From Acidobacteriota bacterium (GTDB lineage: Bacteria; Acidobacteriota; Vicinamibacteria; Vicinamibacterales; UBA2999), in the NCBI GenBank assembly GCA_027622905.1, contig JAQBVV010000005.1:1-51900 (forward strand): a stretch of DNA of 51,900 nucleotides, read 5' to 3'. Within the stretch, counting starts at the first letter, position 1; the number at the start of each line of letters is the position of its first letter. This document shows positions 23,745 to 37,840 of the stretch, one piece after another. Made by a program: the position numbers and the translations under genes. Under the pieces are notes generated by a model. It ran no database searches. It saw nothing but the letters and a program-made list of their open reading frames with translations, and was not told where the DNA came from.

Positions 23745-23827
23745 TCAGTCCCGGACCTTCATCAGCTCGGCGCGCCATCGCGCCGCATCCGGAAAGACGG
23801 CGTCGACGATCCCCGCCCGAGCCAACT
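23745..23827 (-). pseudogene. Decayed duplicate of the tyrA 3' end
   Basis: These 83 bases align without gaps to the 3' end of tyrA (25189-25271) with about ten differences. The minus-strand frame is still open and ends with a TGA at the same place. It reads IVDAVFPDAARWRAELMKVRD, against IVDAVFTDAAGWRAELMKGRD in TyrA. Similarity stops abruptly upstream of the tyrA codons. It marks a former tyrA terminus now 1.4 kb from the real one. Confidence 0.85.
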
Positions 23828-25188: not shown

Positions 25189-26055
25189 TCAATCCCGACC
25201 CTTCATCAGCTCGGCGCGCCATCCCGCCGCATCGGTAAAGACGGCGTCGACGATCTCCGCTCGATCCAGCTCGGTGCGCATCTCTGACAACTGCTCGATC
25301 AATACGTCGAGCGCCTTCCTGATCTCGTCCGTGTTGGTCGCGCAGATGTCCCGCCAGACATCGGCCGGACTGGACGCGAGACGCGTCGTATCGATCAACC
25401 CCTGGCCGGCCATGCGTAACCCGGCAGCCGTCGCCCCCTTGCCGACCACGTCCATCAGCACGGTGGTCGCCAGCTGCGGCAGGTGGCTGATCAGCGCCAT
25501 CAGCCGGTCGTGATCCGACGCCGTCATCGTCGTCGCCTGCGCACCGAGACCGGCCACGAACTCGGAGAGGCGTGGCACCGCCTCGCGCCCAGCCGCGTCA
25601 TGCGGTGTAAAGATCCACGGACGCCGCGCGAACAGGCCGGCAGTCGCGAACTCGAACCCACCGCGCGCGCCACCGCCGAGCGGATGCCCGCCGACGAACG
25701 TCACCGGGGCCGGAAGCGCCGCCGCCGCGTCGACAATTCTTCGCTTGGTGCCGCCAACGTCGGTGATGACGGCCGACGACGAGGCGTGCGCGGCCACCCG
25801 CTGGAGCAACGACAGGTTCTGGCGCACGGGGGCGGCCAGCACAACAAGGTCGGCGTCACCCACCGCGGCCAGGTCGTCAGTCCCGGCGTCGATGGCCCGC
25901 CGATCCAGGCCGGCGCGCAACACCGACTCGCGATCGATGGCGGTCACGTGTGTCGATGGCCATGCCTTGCGAGCGCCGAAGGCGATGGATCCGCCCACGA
26001 GTCCGAGCCCGATGATGACGATTCGAGGAAACACCGGCGGCGTCGGTGACTCCAT
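25189..26055 (-). CDS. tyrA: Prephenate dehydrogenase
   Basis: Oxidatively decarboxylates prephenate to 4-hydroxyphenylpyruvate on the Tyr branch. In the 288-residue protein the NAD-binding Rossmann loop is GLGLVGGS (16-23), the catalytic-site histidine lies in GGHPLGGGARGGF, and the helical dimer domain has HLPQLATTVLMDVVG. No ACT domain is attached. ATG 26055 was chosen; a TTG at 26088 would add eleven residues. It is the last gene of the aromatic operon, 85 bases after the DAHP synthase gene. Its 3' end is duplicated in part at 23745-23827. Confidence 0.93.
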   Translation of the reverse strand: MESPTPPVFPRIVIIGLGLVGGSIAFGARKAWPSTHVTAIDRESVLRAGLDRRAIDAGTDDLAAVGDADLVVLAAPVRQNLSLLQRVAAHASSSAVITDVGGTKRRIVDAAAALPAPVTFVGGHPLGGGARGGFEFATAGLFARRPWIFTPHDAAGREAVPRLSEFVAGLGAQATTMTASDHDRLMALISHLPQLATTVLMDVVGKGATAAGLRMAGQGLIDTTRLASSPADVWRDICATNTDEIRKALDVLIEQLSEMRTELDRAEIVDAVFTDAAGWRAELMKGRD

Positions 26056-26140
26056 CGTCAACGCCCGGAAGCCTGGTCCCGGCGGCAACGCCGCGACCGT
26101 CCTCCCACCGGAACCTGGGATCCGGTCACGTCACCGAACC

Positions 26141-27193
26141 CTACCGGGACCGACCTGGACGCGAGACCGCCTCCAGGCAGATGCTGCGACCGATCGCCGG
26201 CGCGATGATCCGCAACTCGGCCATCAGGCGATCGAACTGGTCCGGGTACATCGACTGCGCGCCGTCGCTCCAGGCATGATCCGGGTCGGCATGCACCTCG
26301 ATGAGCAGACCGTCTGCGCCGGCGGCCACCGCAGCGCGCGCCAGCTGCGGCACCATGTCGCGACGACCCGCCCCGTGGCTCGGATCGGCCACGACGGGCA
26401 GGTGGCTGAGCTTGTGCACGACGGGAATCGCGGAGATGTCGAACGTGTTGCGCGTGGCCGTCTCGAACGTCCGGATGCCTCGCTCGCACAGGATGACGTC
26501 GTTGTTGCCGCCCGCGAGGATGTACTCCGCCGACAGTAGCCATTCCTCGATCGTGGCGGAAATGCCCCGCTTGACGAGTACCGGCTTGCGCGCGTGACCG
26601 AGCTCCCGGAGCAGGGTGTAGTTCTGCATGTTGCGCGCGCCAACCTGAAAGATGTCGCAGTACTTCGCGATCAGCTCGATCTGACTGACGTCCATCACTT
26701 CCGAGATCAGCTTCAGGCCGTGGGCGTCGGAGGCCTGACGCAACATCTTGAGGCCGGCCTCCCCGTGCCCCTGAAAGCTGTAGGGCGAGCTGCGCGGCTT
26801 GAAGGCGCCGCCGCGGAACACCTTGGCCCCGGCGCGCTTGACCGCCGCGGCGGCCGCTTCGCACTGCTCCTCGGTCTCTGCCGAGCAGGGCCCTGCCATG
26901 ACGATCACTTCGTCGCCGCCGATGCGCACGTCGCCCAGCGTGACGATCGTCTTGTCCGGCCGGTAGCTGCGGCTCGCGCGCTTGTACGGCTCGGTGATCC
27001 GCATCACCTCGTGGACGCCGTCGAGGATCTCGATGATCTCCTTGTCTACCTGCACCTTGCCGGTGCCGACCACGCCGAGTACCGTCCGTGTCGAACCGGA
27101 CGACCGATGCACGTCCATTCCCAACTCGATGAGCCGGGCGATCACCGAGTCGACCTGCGACTCGCTCGCCCGCTCCTTCATTACAACGATCAT
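26141..27193 (-). CDS. aroF: DAHP synthase, class I-beta with N-terminal ferredoxin-like domain
   Basis: Condenses phosphoenolpyruvate and erythrose-4-phosphate, the first step of the shikimate pathway. In the 350-residue protein, residues 1-70 form the ferredoxin-like (FL) domain ([20 protein letters not shown]) that mediates feedback inhibition in this class. The barrel follows with GPCSAE (101-106, metal ligand Cys103), [16 protein letters not shown], and [10 protein letters not shown] near the end. Length matches FL-type enzymes. It lies 31 bases after the chorismate mutase gene. In related organisms the FL domain binds Tyr or Phe; here that is inference. Confidence 0.95.
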
Positions 27194-27224: not shown

Positions 27225-27548
27225 TCATTCTTCAGTCGCCGGACCCTGGCTATCCCCGTATCCGCTGGACGCCCGCTCCGCCCTCCGCGCCTCGTCGATG
27301 ATCCGCTCGAATATCCTGACGACCGCCTCGCCCGTCAGCGGACCAGAGAGCTCGGTTGCCGCTTCTCTCACCTTGCCCAGCACCTGGGCCTCTCGCTCGG
27401 GTTGGTACACGGGCAGCGCGGACTCGTGTTTCAGTCGCCCGACTTCCACGGCACAGGCCACCCGCACGTTCAGCAGTCGCAGGAGCTGATCGTCGATAAC
27501 GTCAATCCGGTTGCGCAACTCTTCGATGTTCGTCAAGACTTCAGCCAC
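27225..27548 (-). CDS. Chorismate mutase, AroQ class
   Basis: A 107-residue all-helical monofunctional chorismate mutase that converts chorismate to prephenate. The pattern [22 protein letters not shown] (8-29), [18 protein letters not shown] and [12 protein letters not shown] is the AroQ signature, with the active-site Arg and Lys positions present. It overlaps trpA by 16 bases. Together with tyrA two genes on, it gives the Tyr/Phe branch inside the Trp operon. No prephenate dehydratase is in the window. Confidence 0.9.
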
Positions 27549-28339
27549 CGCACATACTCCTCTACCCGTGAATCAAGATCGTCTGAGGCGCCGGCATCGG
27601 CGATGACGCTGACGAGTCCGCTACCGACCACCGCGGCGTCCGCCCACCGCCCCACTTCCCGCACGTGCGCCGGCGTCGAGATGCCGAATCCGAGGGCGAC
27701 GGGCAGGGGACTGACAGCCCTGATCCGTCGGACCATCTCCTCGGCGCCATCCGCAACGGCGTCGCGAGCCCCGGTCACACCGAGCCGCGAAATAGCATAG
27801 AGGAATCCGCTACCCAGAGACACCGCACGCCGCAGGCGCCCGTCGGTCGTCGTCGGGCTCAGCAGGAGGATTGTATCAATCCCCCGCGACGCCAGAAGTT
27901 GACGGAACTCGTCCGCCTCCTCCAGCGGCAAATCCAGGACGAGCACGCCGTCTACTCCGGCGTCCCGCGCGCGGTCAGCGAACTGTTCCGCGCCAAGCCG
28001 CAGGATCGGGTTGGCGTAGCTGAACAGCACTATCGGCGCCTGTATGTCCCCGCGCAAGCGGCCGACCATGTCGAGGACTCCAGACAGGGTGGTGCCCGAC
28101 GCGAGCGCCCGCTCGGTGGCCCGTTGAATCACCGGACCGTCCGCGAGTGGATCGGAGAACGGCACACCGACCTCCAGGACGTCGGCGCCGGCGCGGTCGA
28201 GGGCACGCAAGATCCCTTCGGTCCTCGGCACGTCCGGATCCCCGGCGGTGATGTACGTCACCAGCCCGGGACCCGCATTGGCCCCGCGAATACGACGAAA
28301 CGTCTCGTCCAGACGCCCCTGGCCGCCGGAGCGACTCAT
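27533..28339 (-). CDS. trpA: Tryptophan synthase alpha chain
   Basis: Cleaves indole-3-glycerol phosphate to indole. The 268-residue TIM barrel has catalytic Glu56 in [15 protein letters not shown] and Asp67 in the same motif, and the phosphate-binding [10 protein letters not shown]. Length is standard. It overlaps trpB by 4 bases (ATGA) and the chorismate mutase gene by 16. It pairs with TrpB to channel indole. Confidence 0.96.
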
Positions 28340-29655
28340 CGGAGCGCCTCGACGACGCTCTGGACGTCCTTGTCGCCTCGTCCTGACAGGTTCACCAGGA
28401 TGACGGTGTCATCCGCGACCTCTGCTGCCAGCCTCATGGCGTAGGCGATCGCGTGCGCCGACTCCAGGGCCGGCAAGATGCCCTCGAGACGCGCGAGGGT
28501 CTGAAACCCCTCGAGCGCGTCTGCGTCAGACACGTGGACGTACTCCGTCCGCCCGAGGTCGCGGAGCCATGCATGCTCCGGCCCGATCGCCGCATAGTCG
28601 AGACCGGCGGAGATGGAGTGGGTCGGTTCGATATTCCCAGCCTCGTCCTGCAGGATGAACGTCCTGGTGCCCTGCAGCACCCCGGTGCTGCCCCCCGCGA
28701 ATCTGGCCGCATGGCGACCTGGCGCGATCGCGTCGCCTCCCGCTTCGACGCCCACGAGACGCACCTCAGCGTCCTCGAGAAATCCGTCGAAGATCCCCAT
28801 GGCGTTGCTGCCTCCACCCACACATGCGACGACGACATCCGGGAGGCGTCCCACCTGATCGAGCATCTGGCGCCGGGCCTCGTACCCGATCACCGACTGG
28901 AACTCCCGCACCATGAGCGGATACGGATGCGGGCCGAGCGCGGACCCCAGTAGATAGTAGGTGTCGGTCACGTTGGCGACCCAGTCGCGCATGGCTTCGT
29001 TGATGGCATCCTTCAGCGTACGACTGCCGGCCTCGACCTCCCGCACCTCCGCGCCGAGCAGTCGCATGCGGACGACATTCAGCGCCTGCCGTCGCATGTC
29101 TTCGGCGCCCATGTAGATGCAGCAGCGCAGTCCCAGCAGTGCGCAGGCCGTGGCCGTGGCCACGCCGTGCTGTCCCGCTCCCGTCTCGGCCACCACGCGC
29201 CGCTTGCCCATGCGCCGGGCGAGCAGCGCCTGTCCCAAGGCGTTATTGATCTTGTGGGCCCCAGTGTGCGCCAGGTCCTCCCGCTTGAGAAGAATGCGCA
29301 CGCCCCGCCCGGCTTTTGCCGGGCCCCGCGCGGCCGCAGTCGCAGCCGCAGCCGCGCCCGCGCCCACAGCCTTCCCAGACGGCCCGCCCCCACACTCGGC
29401 GGCCAGTCGCCGGGTCTCGTAGAGCGAGGTGGGGCGGCCGACGTAGTGCGTCAGCAGCGTCTCGAGCTCACCACGGAACGCGCGATCGTCTCGCGCCGCC
29501 AGATACCCGGCGGTGAGCTCCTCGATCGGCGCGACCAGCGTCTCTGGTACGAAGCGCCCCCCATAGGCCCCGAAGTACCCGCGGGCATCGGGATCCCGCC
29601 TTCCGAACATCGGGCGATCTGCGACCGCAGACTTATCGTTCTCCACGTACTCCAC
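28336..29655 (-). CDS. trpB: Tryptophan synthase beta chain with an Ala-rich insertion
   Basis: PLP enzyme joining indole and serine to make tryptophan. It has [13 protein letters not shown] (28-40), PLP lysine Lys135 in [22 protein letters not shown], and GGGSNAMG (phosphate loop). At 439 residues it is longer than the usual ~400. The excess is an Ala/Gly-rich stretch at about 88-118 between ETRRLAAE and RILLKREDL, at the entry to the communication domain region. Starts at GTG 29655, GTG 29646 or ATG 29610 are possible; the first two overlap trpF. The core is intact, so activity is expected. Confidence 0.95.
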
Positions 29656-30277
29656 CCGCGCCCCGTGCGCTTGCCAGAAAGCGCGCTACCTTGTCCCTGT
29701 TCTTGACACCGGGGGCATCTTCCACGCCCGATGACACATCCACGCCAAACGGCCGAACGGTGTCGACCGCCTCCGCCACATTGTCCGGCGTTAACCCGCC
29801 CGCCAGGACGATTCGCCACGATCGCGCCGCCGCTGCGGCTCGTCCCCAATCGACCGTCCGCCCCGTCCCACCGCGGAGCACCGGATCCGCCGCATCCATC
29901 AGAAAGATCGTATCGGCAGGCCACGCGGCTGCCACCTGCTCGATGCGATCGACCGTCGTGGCTCGCAGCACCGACCGATCCAGCTCGTTTGCATACGAGG
30001 CCGGCTCGTCGCCGTGCAACTGGATCGTGGTGAGCCCGGCCTGGTCGGCCACGAGTCGAATCTCATCGACCGCCTCGTTGACGAACACGCCGACCGTCTG
30101 CACACCTGGCCGCAGCGCCGCGGTGATCGTCGCCGCACGGTCAGGGCTGATGCACCTGGGACTCCGCGACCAGAACACGAACCCCAGCGCCGTCGCGCCC
30201 TGCTCGACCGCATGAACCGCGTCGGACAACTCGGTGATCCCGCAGATCTTCACGAACAGTTCCGCCTGCGCGGTCAC
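29633..30277 (-). CDS. trpF: Phosphoribosylanthranilate isomerase
   Basis: Isomerises phosphoribosylanthranilate to CdRP. The 214-residue TIM barrel has FVKICGIT with catalytic Cys12, the IQLHGDE motif, [10 protein letters not shown] and the catalytic aspartate in [10 protein letters not shown]. It overlaps trpC by 4 bases upstream and, depending on the trpB start, trpB by up to 23. All family motifs are in place and nothing looks disrupted. Confidence 0.96.
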
Positions 30278-31083
30278 CGCCGCACCGTGGCCGGAGCGAC
30301 CAGTTCGCGGATCGCCCGTGCCGGATCGGGATCCACCATGAACCGCTCGCCGATCAGAAACGCCCGGTATCCAGCTGCCGCCAGACGGTCGAGGTCGTCT
30401 CTGGACTGCAGGCCGCTCTCACTGACCCCGATCACGCCCGTCGGCATCTTCGCGGCCAGTCGATGCGAGGCGTTGACGTCCACCTGCAACGTCCGCAGGT
30501 TCCGGTTATTGACGCCGATCACCCGCGCACCGGCGTCGATCGCGCGCGTCAACTCTTCGTCGTCGTGCACCTCCACCAGGGCCGCAAGGCCGAGCTTCCA
30601 CGCGCGCGCCTGCAACCGCGTCAGCGTGGGCTGGTCGAGGGCCGCGACGATCAACAAGATGGCGTCGGCACCCGCAGCGCGTGCTTCCAGCAGCTGATAC
30701 TCATCGACGATGAAGTCCTTCCGTAGCAGCGGCAACGTCACGGCCTCGCGCACCGCCACGAGGTGTTCGAGCGCACCGTCGAAAAACGTCGGCTCGGTCA
30801 ACACGGAGATCGCCGCCGCTCCCCCGCGCTCGTAGCGACCCGCGATCGCCGCCGGATCGTAATCGGCCGCCAGCACACCCTTCGAGGGAGAGCGGCGCTT
30901 GCATTCCGCGATCACGTTCACCCGCCCGACCGTTCCGAGCGCCTGCTCGAATCGAGGGCCGGCCGGCGACGCCTCAGAGGCCCGCGCCTCGAGCGCCGCG
31001 ATCGACTCGCGCTCCCGCCGGGACTGGACCATCCGCTCGGTGGCTCCGATGATCGCCTGCAGCAGATCAGGCGTGGCGCTCAT
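30274..31083 (-). CDS. trpC: Indole-3-glycerol phosphate synthase
   Basis: Closes the indole ring from CdRP with loss of CO2. In the 269-residue enzyme, [13 protein letters not shown] (57-69) holds catalytic Glu60 and Lys62. [13 protein letters not shown] gives the second lysine, and [17 protein letters not shown] and SESGL complete the barrel motifs. It is a separate protein, not fused to TrpF as in E. coli. 4-base overlaps on both sides place it firmly in the operon. Confidence 0.96.
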
Positions 31084-32105
31084 GGACCCGCCTCTGCATG
31101 CGAACCCTGCGCCATCTTCTCGAGCGTCGCCAACGCGGCCCCGGTATCGATCGCCGCGCTGGCGCGCCGGATACCCTCGCGCACGCTCCCGGCGTCGCCG
31201 GCCACCAGCAACGAGGCGCCCGCGTTCAGCACCACCACGTCTCGCGCCGCACCCCGCTCGCCGCGGAGCACGCCGCGCACGATCTCTGCGTTCTGTGTTG
31301 CGTCACCTCCCTGCAGGTCCGACAACGCTGCCTGCGCGACACCGAACTCCGCCGGATGGATATAGAAACTGTGCACCGCCCCGGCGCGGCACTCCGACAC
31401 CTTCGTGTAGCCCGTGGTCGACAGCTCGTCGAGACCGTCGGCGCCGTGCACGACCCAGGCGCGGTCGGCGCCGAGCAGCAACAGCGAACGTGCCAGCACA
31501 TCGGTCAGCTCCGCGCGGGGCACGCCGACGATCTGCCGCCGGGCGCCGGCCGGGTTGGTCAACGGTCCCAGGAGATTGAAGACGGTCCGTATCCCGAGCT
31601 CCCGCCGTGTCGGCGCGGCGTGCCGCATCGACGGATGGAAGGTCGGCGCGAAGAAGAAGGCGATGTTGGCATCGCGCAGGGTTCGCTCCACGGTGGCAGG
31701 CGATGCGCCGATGTTCACGCCAAGCTGTTCAAACACGTCGGCACTGCCGCAGCGACTCGACACCGATCGGTTGCCGTGCTTGGCGACCTTCACGCCACAC
31801 GCGGCCACCACGAGCGCCGCGGCGGACGAAATATTGAACGTGCCGGAACGGTCCCCGCCGGTGCCGCACGTGTCGAACACGTCGCCGACCGGAGCGCTCA
31901 TCGGCACGGCGTGCGCGCGCATCGTCTGCGCGAAGCCCACGATCTCCGCCGGTCGCTCGCCCTTCATCGCCAGCGCGGTCAACAACGCCGCCAGCGCCGC
32001 CGACGACGCGCGCCCTTCCATGACCTCGCGCATGACGGCCGCGGCCTCATCGGCCGTGAGATCCTCGCGACGCATGACTTTCTCGAGCAGGGGTCTCAAC
32101 ATCAC
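31080..32105 (-). CDS. trpD: Anthranilate phosphoribosyltransferase
   Basis: Adds the phosphoribosyl group to anthranilate. The 341-residue protein has the PRPP loop [14 protein letters not shown] (78-91), [18 protein letters not shown] (about 109-126) and the metal site in [11 protein letters not shown]. The helical N-terminal domain is standard. It is a stand-alone enzyme, not fused to TrpG. It overlaps trpG and trpC by 4 bases each. Confidence 0.96.
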
Positions 32106-32668
32106 AACTCGATGAAGTTCTTCAGGATGCGCTGGCCCTCGCCGGTCAGCACCGACTCGGGATGAAACTGCACGCCGTGCACCGGGTGCGTGCGATGCCG
32201 GACACCCATGATGACGTCCTCGTCGCGCCCTCGCGCGGCGACCTCGAGGTTCGACGGAAGGTCCTCGCTGGCGACGATCAGCGAATGGTAACGTCCGGCC
32301 TCGAACGGACTGCTGATGCCCTTGAAGACCCCCTTGCCGTCGTGCACGACAGCTGATGTCTTCCCGTGCATCGGCATCGACGCCCGACAGACCCGCCCCC
32401 CGTACACCATGCCGATCGCCTGATGACCGAGGCAGACGCCAAGGATCGGCGTCGTCGCGCCGAGACGACGGATCAACTCGACGGTGATCCCCGCGTCCTC
32501 CGGACGGCCTGGCCCCGGCGAGATCACGATTCGCTCGGGGCGCATGTCCGCGACCTCGTCCACGGTGATCTGATCGTTCCGATACACACGCATCTCCGCG
32601 CCAAGCTCGCCAAGGTACTGGACGAGGTTGTACGTGAACGAGTCGTAGTTATCAATGACAAGAACCAT
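32102..32668 (-). CDS. trpG: Anthranilate synthase glutamine amidotransferase subunit
   Basis: Supplies ammonia from glutamine to TrpE. It is a 188-residue class I glutaminase with catalytic Cys79 in LGVCLGHQAIG and the His169/Glu171 pair in FHPESVLT; the oxyanion region is SPGPGRPEDAG. It may also serve para-aminobenzoate synthesis, as in other bacteria with a single copy, but that is inference. It lies 3 bases after trpE and overlaps trpD by 4. Confidence 0.95.
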   Translation of the reverse strand: MVLVIDNYDSFTYNLVQYLGELGAEMRVYRNDQITVDEVADMRPERIVISPGPGRPEDAGITVELIRRLGATTPILGVCLGHQAIGMVYGGRVCRASMPMHGKTSAVVHDGKGVFKGISSPFEAGRYHSLIVASEDLPSNLEVAARGRDEDVIMGVRHRTHPVHGVQFHPESVLTGEGQRILKNFIEL

Positions 32669-32671
32669 GGT

Positions 32672-34138
32672 CTACAACCCGCGCTGCGCCAGTTCCAGCG
32701 CCTGAATGACGGCACGCGCTTTGTCGCGTGTCTCCTCGTACTCCGCCGCCGGATCGGAATCGGCCACGATCCCCGCGCCAGCCTGGACGTAGGCGCGGCC
32801 GTTCTCGATGACGACGGTGCGAATCGTAATGCAGAAATCGAGGTCGCCACCACAATCCAGATAGCCGATCGCTCCCGCGTAGACACCACGTCGGTCGCGC
32901 TCAAGCTCGGCGATGATCTCCATCGCGCGCACTTTCGGTGCGCCCGACACCGTGCCGGCCGGAAAGCAGGACACCAGCGCATCGAGTCGATCCCGCTGGT
33001 CGGACAACCGTCCGGTGACGATCGACACCAGATGCATCACGTGGGAATACCGCTCGACCGTCATGTAGGTCGGCACCTCCACGCTGCCGTAGTCCGACAC
33101 GCGTCCGAGGTCGTTGCGCCCAAGGTCGACGAGCATGACATGCTCGGCCCGCTCCTTGTCGCTGCCCAGCAACTCCGTCGCCAGGCGCAGATCCTCCTCG
33201 GCCGTCGCCCCACGCGGACGCGTGCCAGCGATCGGATGCGTCTGCACCTTCCGACCCTCCACGCGCACCAGCATCTCCGGCGAGGATCCGACGATGGTCC
33301 GGCCACCCATGCGCAGGAAGTACATGTAAGGGGACGGGTTCACATGACGGAGCGCCCGATACGCGACGAACGGGTCGGCGTCGAACCGTGTCTCGAAGCG
33401 TTGCGACAGCACGACCTGGTAGATGTCCCCGGCGGCGATGTACTCCTTGGCGGTGCGCACCCGATCCTCGAATTCGCCCCGCGCGACGTTCGACGTCACG
33501 TCCAGCGGCTGCGACGGCGCCGGCGTCATCACCGACAGCGTTCGGTCCAGCTCGCGTTCGACAAATTCGATTCGCGCGCGAGCGAAGCGATACAGCGATT
33601 CAAGATCCTGGTCTCCTCCGATACGCGCGTTGGCGACGATCAGGATCCGATGGCGAAGGTGATCGAAGACGAGCACGGTGTCAAACAGCATGAAGCACGC
33701 GTCGTCGTCGACCACGCTGGTCTCCTGCAGTGTCACCGGCTCGAACCAGGCGGCGGCGTCGTACCCGAGATAGCCCACCGCGCCGCCGGTGAATCGCGGC
33801 AGCCCCGGCAACTCCGGCGAGCGGAAATCCGCCATCAGTGCCCGAACGGCCTCCACGAACGGCTGGTCGCTTTCGGTGGTTTCTCCGGCTTGGTCGATGA
33901 TGGTCTTGCCACCGCGGGACCGCGCGATCAAAAACGGGTCCTTACCGAGAAACGAGTAGCGCCCAACCTGCTCTCCGCCCTCGACCGACTCGAACAGGAA
34001 CGCGTAGTCGGAATACTCCGCGACCTTCAGAAACGCGGAGACGGGCGTCAATAAATCCGCGACGCTTTCCTTGTACACAGGTACAAACGTGCCCTCCGTC
34101 GCGAGCGCCCGAAATTCTTCAAACGTGGTGATGTGCAT
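32672..34138 (-). CDS. trpE: Anthranilate synthase component I
   Basis: Converts chorismate and ammonia to anthranilate, the first committed Trp step. The 488-residue protein has an N-terminal feedback domain with FLFESVEGG (the LLES-type Trp-binding site), then the chorismate-binding domain. That domain carries GDIYQVVLSQRFE, GSSPEMLVR, HPIAGTRPRG and GTVSGAPKVRAMEII. Presence of the Trp site suggests allosteric inhibition on top of transcriptional control. It starts at ATG 34138, overlapping the aroDE stop by one base. Confidence 0.96.
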   Translation of the reverse strand: MHITTFEEFRALATEGTFVPVYKESVADLLTPVSAFLKVAEYSDYAFLFESVEGGEQVGRYSFLGKDPFLIARSRGGKTIIDQAGETTESDQPFVEAVRALMADFRSPELPGLPRFTGGAVGYLGYDAAAWFEPVTLQETSVVDDDACFMLFDTVLVFDHLRHRILIVANARIGGDQDLESLYRFARARIEFVERELDRTLSVMTPAPSQPLDVTSNVARGEFEDRVRTAKEYIAAGDIYQVVLSQRFETRFDADPFVAYRALRHVNPSPYMYFLRMGGRTIVGSSPEMLVRVEGRKVQTHPIAGTRPRGATAEEDLRLATELLGSDKERAEHVMLVDLGRNDLGRVSDYGSVEVPTYMTVERYSHVMHLVSIVTGRLSDQRDRLDALVSCFPAGTVSGAPKVRAMEIIAELERDRRGVYAGAIGYLDCGGDLDFCITIRTVVIENGRAYVQAGAGIVADSDPAAEYEETRDKARAVIQALELAQRGL

Positions 34139-35661
34139 CAGTCGGTACCCGCCATCCCGCTCATCGGCCTCGCGGCTCCGCCGTCGGCCGCCTCACGCAT
34201 GACGCCGGGGCCAGGACGCATCCCGGTCCACCATTCAAACTGCCGCTCAGCCTGCGCCACCAGCATCGGCCGGCCATCGAGCGCCGACAACCCGGCTTGC
34301 CGAGCATCGCGCATCAGGGGTGACTCGCCCCGTTGATACGTCAGGTCGTAGACGAATCGACCGTCCAGTGCCTCGCCGGCCATCGGCGAACTGTCCGGCG
34401 CGGATGCGCTCCCCAGTGGCGTGCAGTTCACCAGTACGTCCCACGATCCGGCGTCCGGAGGCCACGGCCCCACGCTGGCGTCCAGCGACTCGGCCAGCGC
34501 CTGCGCCTGCGCAGCGCGCCGCGCATGCACGGTGACGCACGCCCCGCGCGATTTCAAGGCCACGACGACCGCGCGCGACACGCCACCGGCACCGAGCACC
34601 GACACGCGTATCCCCATCTTCCCGGTAGGCCCCGTCTTCCCGGCGGGCCCCGTCGCCGCCTGCCCCAGCAGATCCGCGCCCCATGCTGCCTCCAGCGGCT
34701 CCAGAAACCCCGCGAGATCCGTATTGGTCGCCTCCCACCCGTCCGGCACCCGTCGCACCGTATTGGCCGCGCCTACACGCCGCGCCAACGCATCGGAGGC
34801 GATCGATGCGTCGAGCGCATCCCGCTTGAACGGAATGGTGACGCTGGCGCCCGCCAGGTCCAGCGCCTCGGCAAACGCCAGAAAATCCGCGAAGTCCGCC
34901 GCACACAACGGAACGTACACGGCGTCACGGCCGGCGGCGGCGAACGCGGCATTGTGCATCGCCGGAGACACCGAGTGCATGACGTTGTTACCCACGACGC
35001 CGTACACCGCGGTGTGCGCACCCACGGCACGAAACCGAAACTCGCCGACCATGCGGGTCGCGGGAATCTGACCGGGGGCGACGTTCTGACCGGCGAATGT
35101 CCACCGAGAGCCGAATCGCGACGCCAGCAACCGACTCGGGACACCGGCGTCGCCCATCGCAACCACGACCGCATCTCCCTGCTTGGCCACCTCGAGCAGG
35201 GGTAGCGAATCGGACAGCCGGGCCGCCGAGACCGCCACCTTGATCAGCGCGGCGCCGGTGCTCCGCATGGCGCGTGCCCGCGTCGCGAGATCGGCGGGTA
35301 CCCCGGTGAAATCGTGGGACGAGACGACGACGCGTGGCTGGTTGGCCGCGATCATGTCGTCGAACCCCGCCTGCCATTCGATATCCACGTACCTCGCGCC
35401 GTGCGCCAGCGCGCGGGTCAGTACGCCCCGCCGTTCCTCCTCGCTGCCGTCGAATCGGCCGCCCTCCCAGACCGGTCGACACGTGGCGACCACCGGGACC
35501 GTGACGGCGTCCAGCGCACCGGCCACATCGAGATCGCGCACGCCGTCGAGGCGCAGCTCGACCATGTCGACCACACCGGCCGAGGCCGCGGCGTCGCGGG
35601 CCGCGATCAGTTCGGCCATCGTGGCGCCGGTCACCGTCTCGCACAACAACGCTGGAGTCAT
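34138..35661 (-). CDS. aroDE: Bifunctional 3-dehydroquinate dehydratase / shikimate dehydrogenase
   Basis: A fusion of two consecutive shikimate-pathway enzymes, 507 residues from ATG 35661. Residues 1-215 are a type I dehydroquinase with His116 in SSHDFTG and Schiff-base Lys141 in ALIKVAVSA. Residues 218-500 are a shikimate dehydrogenase with MHSVSPAMHNAAF, catalytic Lys279 in IPFKRD, NTDLAGF and NADP loop GAGGVSRA (358-365). A short GPAGKTGPTGK linker sits before the NADP domain. Such fusions are known in plants and some bacteria. It heads the operon; a start at 35670 is also possible, but the open frame above it runs through the attenuator terminator. Confidence 0.93.
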   Translation of the reverse strand: MTPALLCETVTGATMAELIAARDAAASAGVVDMVELRLDGVRDLDVAGALDAVTVPVVATCRPVWEGGRFDGSEEERRGVLTRALAHGARYVDIEWQAGFDDMIAANQPRVVVSSHDFTGVPADLATRARAMRSTGAALIKVAVSAARLSDSLPLLEVAKQGDAVVVAMGDAGVPSRLLASRFGSRWTFAGQNVAPGQIPATRMVGEFRFRAVGAHTAVYGVVGNNVMHSVSPAMHNAAFAAAGRDAVYVPLCAADFADFLAFAEALDLAGASVTIPFKRDALDASIASDALARRVGAANTVRRVPDGWEATNTDLAGFLEPLEAAWGADLLGQAATGPAGKTGPTGKMGIRVSVLGAGGVSRAVVVALKSRGACVTVHARRAAQAQALAESLDASVGPWPPDAGSWDVLVNCTPLGSASAPDSSPMAGEALDGRFVYDLTYQRGESPLMRDARQAGLSALDGRPMLVAQAERQFEWWTGMRPGPGVMREAADGGAARPMSGMAGTD

Positions 35662-35690
35662 GGCATGCATCAATCGAGTGGAGCCTATAA

Positions 35691-35728
35691 ACAAAAACGC
35701 CTCTTCAACCATGGGCTGAAGAGGCGTT
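35691..35728 (-). terminator. Attenuator: intrinsic terminator before aroDE
   Basis: On the minus strand AACGCCTCTTCA (35728-35717) pairs perfectly over 12 bases with TGAAGAGGCGTT (35707-35696) around a 9-base loop, followed by TTTTTGTTTATA. This is a strong Rho-independent terminator placed between the promoter and the first gene. Its 5' arm can instead pair with TGAAGGGGCG (35774-35765; nine Watson-Crick pairs and one G-U), a segment near the end of the leader ORF. That pairing would form the antiterminator. Confidence 0.9.
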
Positions 35729-35752
35729 GTCGTGGCTCAGTATGTGCGTGTG

Positions 35753-35851
35753 CTAGACGCGGGCCGCCCCTTCAGTCGCAGTCGGATACCGCCACCAGCC
35801 GCTGGTGTGGCTCGACAACCGGACGAAGGTAAAGTAGCGCGGCGAAATCAT
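35753..35851 (-). CDS. Aromatic leader peptide (attenuation control of the aro-trp operon)
   Basis: A 32-codon ORF from ATG 35851 to TAG 35755-35753, about 12 bases after the predicted transcription start and 24 bases before the terminator hairpin. Its composition is highly telling: Tyr6, Phe7, Phe9, then tandem Trp19-Trp20 and Tyr22, that is six aromatics in 32 codons. A ribosome stalled at Trp19, Trp20 or Tyr22 would have its leading edge just before the antiterminator segment (starting 35774), leaving it free. One at the stop codon would cover it. The Shine-Dalgarno is weak or absent, which is the main doubt. The peptide itself probably has no further role. Confidence 0.85.
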   Translation of the reverse strand: MISPRYFTFVRLSSHTSGWWRYPTATEGAARV

Positions 35852-35879
35852 TGATAGAACCGAACGTCGACTCTATCGT
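35851..35879 (+). promoter_or_regulatory. Candidate promoter of the S55-like gene
   Basis: TTGATA (35851-35856) and TATCGT (35874-35879) with a 17-base spacer face the S55-like gene at 35966. The -10 overlaps the -10 of the opposing aromatic-operon promoter. Confidence 0.5.
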
Positions 35880-35899
35880 AGAGCTTCAGGAACTGTCAA
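35870..35899 (-). promoter_or_regulatory. Promoter of the aro-trp operon
   Basis: On the minus strand a perfect -35 TTGACA (35899-35894) and TAGAGT (35875-35870) are 18 bases apart, which places transcription start near 35863, just upstream of the leader peptide. The palindrome CTCTA-tcg-TAGAG (35871-35883) covers the -10 of this and of the divergent promoter and could be an operator. Confidence 0.7.
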
Positions 35900-35965
35900 C
35901 GACCAACGCGCCATGTCCTTGCAGTTTCCTCGGTTTACCCGTATCGTCAGAAACGAGTCCTGACA

Positions 35966-37840
35966 GTGCGGAACCTTCCACTCATCGTCGTGAGACTGCT
36001 TGCCGCCGTCGCCGCGCTTGTGGTGCTGCTGGTCGGCGGCCTGCCGGCTCAAAGCCGCACGTTCCCCGTGGACGAATTGCGGGCCGGCATGGTCGGCATC
36101 GGCAGGACGGTGTTCGAAGGCGATCGCCTCGACGAGTTTCAGGCTCACATCATTGGCGTGCTCCACAACGTCATCGGTCCACGCCGGGATCTGATCCTGG
36201 CCCGTCTTGAAGGCGGCCCCCTCGCTCGCACGGGCGTCATCGCCGGCATGAGCGGCAGCCCGGTCTACATCGACGGGCGCCTGGTCGGTGCGGTCTCGTA
36301 TTCCCTCGGTCAGTTTTCCACCGAACCCATTGCCGGGATCACGCCGATCGGCGAGATGACCGACGCCGCGACCTTCTCGGCGCCGAGACGCCAGGTCCCG
36401 GCCGTCGCGCTGGATACGCCGCTCACACCCGAAGGCCTCATCGCGTCGCTCCGGCAAGCGTTCAGTGCGGTGCGTCCGTTTGCGGATAGCCCGGGCGACA
36501 TCCAGGTCCTCGGCAACGCGGAGCTGCATGCCGGCATCGGCACGATGCTCCGCCCGATCGCCACGCCGCTCACGCTGGGTGGATTCGACGCCGGCGCGAT
36601 CGCCCCGCTCGCGTCTGTATTCCGCGACCAGGGCTTTGTGCCCGTGGTAGCCGGTGTCTCACCGCTGATGCCTCGACTGGCCCAGGGTGCCAGCGGCGCG
36701 GTGGCGGCGCCCCGTTTGCGACCCGGAGATCCCGTTGGGGTCTCGCTGATGAGCGGCGACCTCCAGATGGGCGCCACCGGGACGGTGACCGAGGTCGACG
36801 GTGACCGTGTCTATGCGTTTGGCCATCCGTTCTACGGGCTGGGACCGACGCAGTTCCCGATGACACGCGCGCACATCCTGACGCTGCTCCCGAGCCTGGC
36901 GAACTCCTCGAAGATCGCCAGCACCGGAGAGGTGATCGGCACGATCGAGCAGGATCGCGCCACGACGATCGCCGGCACCCTCGGCGCGGGTCCGACCCTG
37001 ATTCCGGTGCACATCACGCTGAAGTCGGAGCGCGGCATCGAAGAGATGTTCGACATGGCGATGGTTAACGACCGGCTGTTCACCCCCACGCTGGCCTATC
37101 TGTCGATCCTCAGCACGCTGAACTCGTACGAGCGACAAAACGGCGTGGCCAGCTATACGGTTCGCGGCACCGCTGCGCTGAAGGGACACGGGAGCGTCGC
37201 GTTCGAAAATCTCTTCACCGGCGACCAACCGTCGCTCGGTGCAGCCGCCTACGTCGTGGCCCCCATCAACGTGCTGCTCCGCAACGACTTCGAGGACGTG
37301 GAACTGGAGCGCCTCGATCTGCAGATCGAGGCGAGCGAAGAACCCCGCTCCGCCACGCTCGAGCGCGTGTGGGTCGATGGTCGTCGCGCCGCACCAGGGA
37401 CGACCGTGCAACTCAAGATGCTGCTTCGCACCTATCGAGGCGAAGAGATCACCCAGACCCTGCCGGTGGACATCCCGGCCAGGGCCCGCGGGACGGTCTC
37501 GATCATGGTGGCTGACGGCACGAGCCTGTCACAGTGGGAGGCACGTGAATTGCGGATACAACCGCTCCAGGCACGAGGGCTGCCCCAGATGATTCGCGTC
37601 CTCAATAACACGCGCAAGCACAACCGCCTCTACGTTCGTCTGCTTGGCGGCGGCAACGGCGCAGTTGTCGAGGGCGAGTCGCTGTCGTCGCTGCCGTCGT
37701 CGGTGATGGCGGTCCTCGAATCGGATCGCAACGGCGGCAGCTTCAGTCCGTTGCGGACCGCCATGCTTGGCGAATGGGACATCGCAACCGAGCATGCGGT
37801 CACCGGAGCCCGCACTCTGACGTTGGCGATCGAGGAGTAA
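35966..37840 (+). CDS. Exported SpoIVB peptidase S55-like protein
   Basis: A 624-residue protein with an N-terminal hydrophobic signal (LLAAVAALVVLLVGGLPAQS). The serine motif VIAGMSGSPVYIDGRLVGAV is at about 91-110, and the histidine motif DRVYAFGHPFYGLG is at about 280-293. Both resemble the S55 domain of SpoIVB. In SpoIVB the His precedes the Ser, whereas here the order is reversed. The C-terminal half is beta-rich with no named domain. The GTG start at 35966 follows a divergent promoter shared with the aromatic operon. The next gene starts directly after its stop, so the two likely act together in the periplasm. The proteolytic role is unproven. Confidence 0.8.
   Translation: MRNLPLIVVRLLAAVAALVVLLVGGLPAQSRTFPVDELRAGMVGIGRTVFEGDRLDEFQAHIIGVLHNVIGPRRDLILARLEGGPLARTGVIAGMSGSPVYIDGRLVGAVSYSLGQFSTEPIAGITPIGEMTDAATFSAPRRQVPAVALDTPLTPEGLIASLRQAFSAVRPFADSPGDIQVLGNAELHAGIGTMLRPIATPLTLGGFDAGAIAPLASVFRDQGFVPVVAGVSPLMPRLAQGASGAVAAPRLRPGDPVGVSLMSGDLQMGATGTVTEVDGDRVYAFGHPFYGLGPTQFPMTRAHILTLLPSLANSSKIASTGEVIGTIEQDRATTIAGTLGAGPTLIPVHITLKSERGIEEMFDMAMVNDRLFTPTLAYLSILSTLNSYERQNGVASYTVRGTAALKGHGSVAFENLFTGDQPSLGAAAYVVAPINVLLRNDFEDVELERLDLQIEASEEPRSATLERVWVDGRRAAPGTTVQLKMLLRTYRGEEITQTLPVDIPARARGTVSIMVADGTSLSQWEARELRIQPLQARGLPQMIRVLNNTRKHNRLYVRLLGGGNGAVVEGESLSSLPSSVMAVLESDRNGGSFSPLRTAMLGEWDIATEHAVTGARTLTLAIEE

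Follow-up and report, generated by a model that had tools for sequence, protein, structure and literature searches.

The window, by which we mean the whole 51,900-nt stretch of DNA analyzed here, carries on its minus strand a run of 11 nearly abutting genes for aromatic amino acid synthesis, with junctions of about -20 to +52 nt. The first is aroDE, a fusion of type I 3-dehydroquinase and shikimate dehydrogenase (34138-35670), followed by trpE (32672-34138), trpG (32102-32668), trpD (31080-32105), trpC (30274-31083), trpF (29633-30277), trpB (28336-29655), trpA (27533-28339), aroQ, encoding chorismate mutase (27225-27548), an FXD-type DAHP synthase gene, aroG (26141-27193), and tyrA, encoding prephenate dehydrogenase (25189-26088). 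The original prediction of an aromatic supra-operon covering shikimate, Trp, and Tyr steps is borne out by Pfam and NCBIfam matches for all of these genes except trpA, which was assigned from its translation and position and matches its counterparts in relatives, where the order is the same. A search of genome contigs with a profile built from an aroDE alignment added 80 named loci, nearly all labeled as Acidobacteria, Vicinamibacteria, or Vicinamibacterales MAGs, the few other names probably being mislabeled bins. The full order aroDE-trpEGDCFBA-aroQ-aroG-tyrA is present in 42 of these 80 loci; most of the remainder end at a contig edge with the same order up to that point, and a few are without a detected aroQ or aroG. 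The source genome apparently has no DAHP synthase besides that of the operon, and no class II enzyme was found in it. A second PF00793 match was rejected as a DAHP synthase: it resembles KDO-8-P synthase and follows a CTP-synthase-like glutamine amidotransferase domain. Prephenate dehydratase (pheA) is encoded elsewhere in the source genome, and reading the region upstream of it revealed no attenuator in the form of a short Phe-rich ORF followed by a terminator. Beyond the operon's distal end, an 83-nt sequence at 23745-23827 is repeated directly with 88% identity at 25189-25271, the 3' end of tyrA; the former lies about 1.4 kb beyond the tyrA copy and looks like the leftover of a tyrA duplication. 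On the other side, the divergent neighbor (35966-37840, plus strand) encodes a protein of which one stretch resembles SpoIVB peptidase S55.

Between this neighbor and aroDE lies a compact leader, also on the minus strand. A sigma-70-like promoter (35870-35899), composed of TTGACA (35899-35894), an 18-nt spacer, and TAGAGT (35875-35870), places the predicted transcription start at about 35863. The leader peptide ORF (35753-35851) has 32 codons and encodes MISPRYFTFVRLSSHTSGWWRYPTATEGAARV before its stop, including Tyr6, Phe7, Phe9, and a control segment of Trp19, Trp20, Arg21, and Tyr22 written TGG TGG CGG TAT (35786-35797). It is preceded by no Shine-Dalgarno sequence and by a predicted 5' UTR of only 11-12 nt or so. 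Region 1 (35816-35843, comprising GCCGC at 35843-35839 and CCTTCGTCCGGTTG at 35829-35816) overlaps the Phe9 codon and pairs with 35784-35763, and the resulting 1:2 hairpin encloses the Trp codons. Region 2, the 5' strand of the antiterminator (35765-35774), encodes T-E-G-A, and its sequence, TGAAGGGGCG, is nearly a copy of the terminator 3' arm. The intrinsic terminator, 3:4 (35696-35728), has the arms AACGCCTCTTCAGCC and GGTTGAAGAGGCGTT, which form a 15-bp stem around a 3-nt loop and are followed by TTTGTTTA, with a U-rich tail to about 35688; region 3 is its 5' arm (35728-35714). Region 2 can form 10 bp with CGCCTCTTCA (35726-35717) inside this arm, extendable to 13 positions with one mismatch. 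The true start of aroDE is probably near 35670, about 25 nt past the terminator. The longest aroDE frame opens at an ATG at 35712, within the terminator hairpin, and an annotation pipeline might choose this start and so mask the attenuator. The leader has a folding z-score of -3.74, and none of 200 shuffles was equally stable. The original prediction gave the promoter, ORF, codons, and competing 10-bp pairing as we find them; it also placed the terminator correctly, but its 12-bp stem was slightly short of the 15 pairs seen when G-U pairs are counted. Its view that these elements are unlikely to coincide by chance agrees with a scan of the entire window for a strong terminator with a competing upstream pairing and a nearby TGG-rich segment, which returned this single site, and no site in three shuffled copies of the window.

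The leader is conserved well beyond the source genome. The aroDE protein is present in 58 of 59 genomes searched, the source genome included, and upstream of nearly every aroDE there is a short ORF that ends in a variant of YWWWYRTATEGAAGV. After removal of duplicates, we collected 105 non-redundant aroDE leaders from Vicinamibacterales-type Acidobacteriota MAGs. All 105 have a terminator with a U-rich tract after the hairpin (the tract being a requirement of the search), and all 105 were assigned a Trp-coding segment and an adjoining pairing between region 2 and the terminator 5' arm. Absence of the codons or of the competing stems from close relatives would have spoken against the original prediction; all three elements were assigned in every leader, a few of them poorly, and both stems covary. 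The poor script assignments (L040, L077, and L107) were excluded from later counts, and one of them, L040, has a normal leader on direct reading, ending in FGFGWWDYAHTEGAPALA. Of 102 leaders, 93% have an exact TTGAC upstream, and 75% reach a promoter score of at least 9, compared to 4.5% of shuffles. A Shine-Dalgarno-like run occurs in just 4 of 96 leaders and the median predicted 5' UTR is 9 nt; given these short UTRs and rare runs, ribosomes probably translate the leader ORF from an almost leaderless transcript. In some alphaproteobacteria, trpL begins at its own AUG. At E<=0.001, a covariance model of the element has matches in 98 of 106 genomes from the order, with one real site per genome, second matches being either weak or antisense to the palindromic terminator; a search for a second leader copy in the source genome returned only matches of these two kinds. 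Outside the order the model matches weakly, and most such matches in other classes were set aside as terminators behind unrelated genes. Judged by these sequences, the element is fixed in nearly the entire order.

Both of the competing helices are under evident constraint. Across 93 aligned leaders, 95.4% of cells in the terminator stem are paired, with 28 double-change cells compared to 6.5 in shuffles, and 96.5% of cells in the core helix of the 2:3 antiterminator are paired, with 27 double-change cells compared to 9.6 in controls; the controls are shuffled or slid alignments, and since the leaders are related to one another, comparison with shuffles exaggerates the significance of these differences. 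When U is replaced by C in region 3, regions 2 and 4 both have G in 8 of 8 cases at one position and in 9 of 10 at another. The terminator and antiterminator are conserved in the same alignment columns as mutually exclusive structures that share region 3. Region 2 imitates the terminator 3' arm, with which it competes for region 3, and the conserved peptide tail TEGAA is for this reason best read as region-2 RNA running through the reading frame. The RNA is kept in other genera even though their frame or peptide differs (EEAA, GEAH, and QKRQ). Without a ribosome, upstream RNA holds region 2 (P>0.5) in 89% of leaders.

A terminator with an alternative pairing would, taken alone, be equally compatible with control by another kind of RNA sensor, such as a T-box, a riboswitch, or a TRAP-type protein, with the ORF being incidental. 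We consider this very improbable. Rfam 15, including Trp_leader (RF00513) and the T-box and riboswitch models, gave nothing in the window at gathering score, and a search relaxed to E=10 over 35600-35950 gave nothing plausible, only chance miRNA models and no match to RF00513. In addition, the conserved Trp-rich frame and the conserved spacing from Trp to region 2 to stop codon would be needed only by a translating ribosome. The aroDE start codon of many relatives comes directly after the U-tract, as might be expected if the 3:4 hairpin acted mainly by hiding the aroDE ribosome-binding site. However, the U-rich tract after the hairpin in every leader examined, although required by the search, is the mark of an intrinsic terminator, and such translational attenuation seems improbable.

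We instead read the element, with a probability of roughly 0.92, as a ribosome-mediated transcription attenuator before the aroDE operon, and the relatives' leaders and covarying stems give strong support to the original prediction of leader-peptide attenuation ahead of an aromatic supra-operon. Its anatomy, conservation, covariation, and operon content can be read from the sequences, and from these we infer termination itself, its response to stalling, and Tyr as a second input. Transcription would start about 12 nt before the leader ORF, which has no Shine-Dalgarno site. When charged tRNA is ample, the ribosome would reach the stop codon and bury region 2, leaving region 3 to pair with region 4, and transcription would end ahead of aroDE. 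A shortage of charged tRNA-Trp or tRNA-Tyr would instead hold the ribosome at Trp19, Trp20, or Tyr22, where it would disrupt the 1:2 hairpin; region 2 would stay free, 2:3 formation would pre-empt the terminator, and the entire shikimate-Trp-Tyr operon would be transcribed. With no translation, 1:2 would form and termination would be the default.

The geometry of this mechanism was modeled with a ribosome whose footprint extends 16 nt beyond the first base of the P site, the uncovered RNA being folded up to the terminator loop; this is an equilibrium calculation on truncated RNA, and it says nothing of the extent of termination. For the window leader, the modeled probability of the 2:3 helix, P(2:3), is 0.07 with no ribosome. 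It rises to 0.87-0.90 when the ribosome waits at Trp19, Trp20, or Arg21, is 0.75 for Tyr22, drops to 0.22 by codon 24, and is 0 at every codon from 26 on, the stop included. All 104 leaders modeled have P(2:3) below 0.1 with the ribosome at the stop codon, and in 99% the best Trp codon gives more than 0.5; the means are 0.86 at Trp codons and 0.82 at Tyr codons, and the result holds for leading edges from +12 to +18. As a positive control, a near-identical script applied to E. coli trpL, with its sequence checked against E. coli genomes, gave 0.00 without a ribosome, 0.78 at W10, W11, or R12, and 0.06 at the stop codon, a modeled output that matches the expectation from known biology. The original proposal that a ribosome at the stop codon masks region 2 while one stalled at Trp19, Trp20, or Tyr22 frees it is thus reproduced by the stall model and its control. 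With no ribosome, at the stage when region 3 is made, P(2:3) is below 0.2 in 42% of leaders and has a median of 0.51 over all leaders, and in this model the case for default termination without translation is clearer in some leaders than in others. Equilibrium folding of the full leader in the stalled state favors the terminator (P of about 0.97), so the model requires the usual co-transcriptional order of events. Since modeled stalls at almost any codon from 2 to 22 antiterminate, geometry alone cannot single out Trp or Tyr.

Which amino acids are read has to be judged from the codons that have been kept. By their conservation, Trp is the universal control codon, occupying the control position in all leaders that entered the counts. 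The window leader has WWRY where WWWY is the usual form among close relatives; its Arg21 codon, CGG, is one change from TGG and probably replaced a Trp codon. Tyr makes up 124 of the 577 non-Trp residues of the cluster (21.5%) compared to 1.8% of residues in the operon proteins, an enrichment of about 12-fold, and is present in the clusters of 94 of 102 leaders and of 63 of 70 sequence clusters defined at 70% identity; in the other two frames of the control segment it accounts for at most 0.7%. An alternative reading would have the leader respond physiologically to Trp alone, its Tyr and Phe codons being by-products of RNA pairing or drift. The universality of Trp in the cluster is consistent with this, as is the fact that classical Trp-only leaders are the norm (PMC1262725), and the Tyr codons of the close family lie partly in the apical stem of 1:2 and could be constrained as RNA. 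However, Tyr is enriched precisely at the control cluster, where its arrangement varies (WWWY, WYWYW, WWYW, WRWYW, WWYYG, and WWWFFYF) and both of its codons are used (TAT:TAC of 79:45, the reverse of the 18:46 in the window's operon), and this variety suggests that the amino acid, rather than the RNA, has been kept. The operon, moreover, also makes Tyr through tyrA and contains the sole DAHP synthase. We regard a Trp-only attenuator as rather unlikely and Tyr as a probable second input beside Trp.

Phe is a weaker candidate. Its frequency in the N-terminal part of the peptide is 7.3% in frame 0 compared to 3.2-3.6% in the other frames, an enrichment of about 2-fold, stalls at Phe7 and Phe9 of the window leader give P(2:3) of 0.88 and 0.87, and some lineages have Phe inside the cluster (WWWFFYF and WFWFIYF); each of these would fit a sensor in which starvation for Trp, Tyr, or Phe relieves termination. 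Yet Phe falls within the cluster in only 26 of 102 leaders, and N-terminal Phe codons depend on lineage and are not conserved in position over the order. Part of the enrichment, moreover, would also be expected if Trp were the only signal: region 1, of the CCUUC type (for example, AGCCCCTTC), complements GAAGGGGC and thereby encodes Ser-Pro-Phe, and Phe is commonest in these region-1 codons (11.9% compared to 5.8% elsewhere). Prephenate dehydratase, as noted above, lies elsewhere with no attenuator seen before its gene. We therefore treat Phe as a possible third input, with weak support from the codon counts, and a sensor for all three amino acids as doubtful. The original suggestion that the leader senses several aromatic amino acids holds up for Trp and Tyr, through position-specific enrichment, and poorly for Phe. 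Its fullest form, in which a single leader is an OR-gate for Trp, Tyr, and Phe that sets the committed step (the sole DAHP synthase) together with the shikimate, Trp, and Tyr genes across the order, remains speculative and is to our mind doubtful as well.

The element resembles E. coli trpL (RF00513) in having a short ORF with tandem Trp codons, 1:2, 2:3, and 3:4 pairings, an intrinsic terminator, and region 2 buried by a ribosome at the stop codon, and the two show the same response in similar stall models. It differs from trpL in having no sequence similarity detectable by Rfam, 32 codons rather than 14, Tyr codons in the cluster, a near-leaderless ORF without a Shine-Dalgarno sequence, and aroDE as the first gene of an operon that also holds aroQ, DAHP synthase, and tyrA. 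One leader reading codons for several products of its operon is known from the ilvGMEDA and thr leaders of E. coli, which read branched-chain amino acids or Thr and Ile, not aromatic amino acids; here, Trp and Tyr codons are both kept at the control position. The trp attenuators of actinobacteria such as Corynebacterium and Streptomyces share with the present element double or triple UGG codons, a GC-rich terminator with a competing antiterminator, and patterns conserved at multiple interactions, but they precede trp genes only, and the study that described them came upon no RNA structure that might serve a Phe or Tyr operon (PMC1262725). Attenuators are also predicted before tyrA-containing supra-operons of, for example, Desulfovibrio vulgaris, Enterococcus, and Streptococcus (PMC1173090); these are, as here, large aromatic gene sets thought to be attenuated, but they are database-listed and belong to other phyla with other gene orders. 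In a 2010 survey, the predicted attenuators of Acidobacteriota had almost no assigned function (PMC2965389). A partial literature search found no published account of attenuation in this group or phylum, although an earlier survey may list the element. The mechanism is a textbook one, and what appears to be new is the phylum, the 11-gene target, and the apparent dual input.

Other candidate leaders came to light during the search. In another class of Acidobacteriota, a TrpB2-like gene is preceded by a Trp leader peptide (for example, MMPFGSAPITNPILGWWWCAGATGGREAAL; L176, L177, L183, L184, and L201-L208) with its own terminator, GCCCTCCGG/CCGGAGGGC. In L176, L177, L183, L201-L203, and L205, a WWW peptide stands ahead of region 2 and a terminator, as in the aroDE leader; unlike there, the stem is GGAGGGC/GCCCTCC, the target gene is different, and Cys or Tyr follows WWW. 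It is apparently a separate, true Trp attenuator of its own kind, and unlisted. In another order of the same class as the source genome, one locus (L180) has a terminator, GCCTCTTCAGGG...CCTGGAGAGGC, upstream of aroDE and a nearby short frame, RWRPVFRHHRYHP, with one Trp and several His codons, a decayed or different leader.

With the covariance model, the element can be annotated in genomes that presently have no annotation for it. The aroDE leader documents classical ribosome-mediated attenuation, nearly order-wide, in Acidobacteriota. It places one attenuator over the entry to the aromatic pathway, its trunk, and two of its branches, and the Tyr codons beside the Trp codons make it likely that this textbook switch has more than one input.
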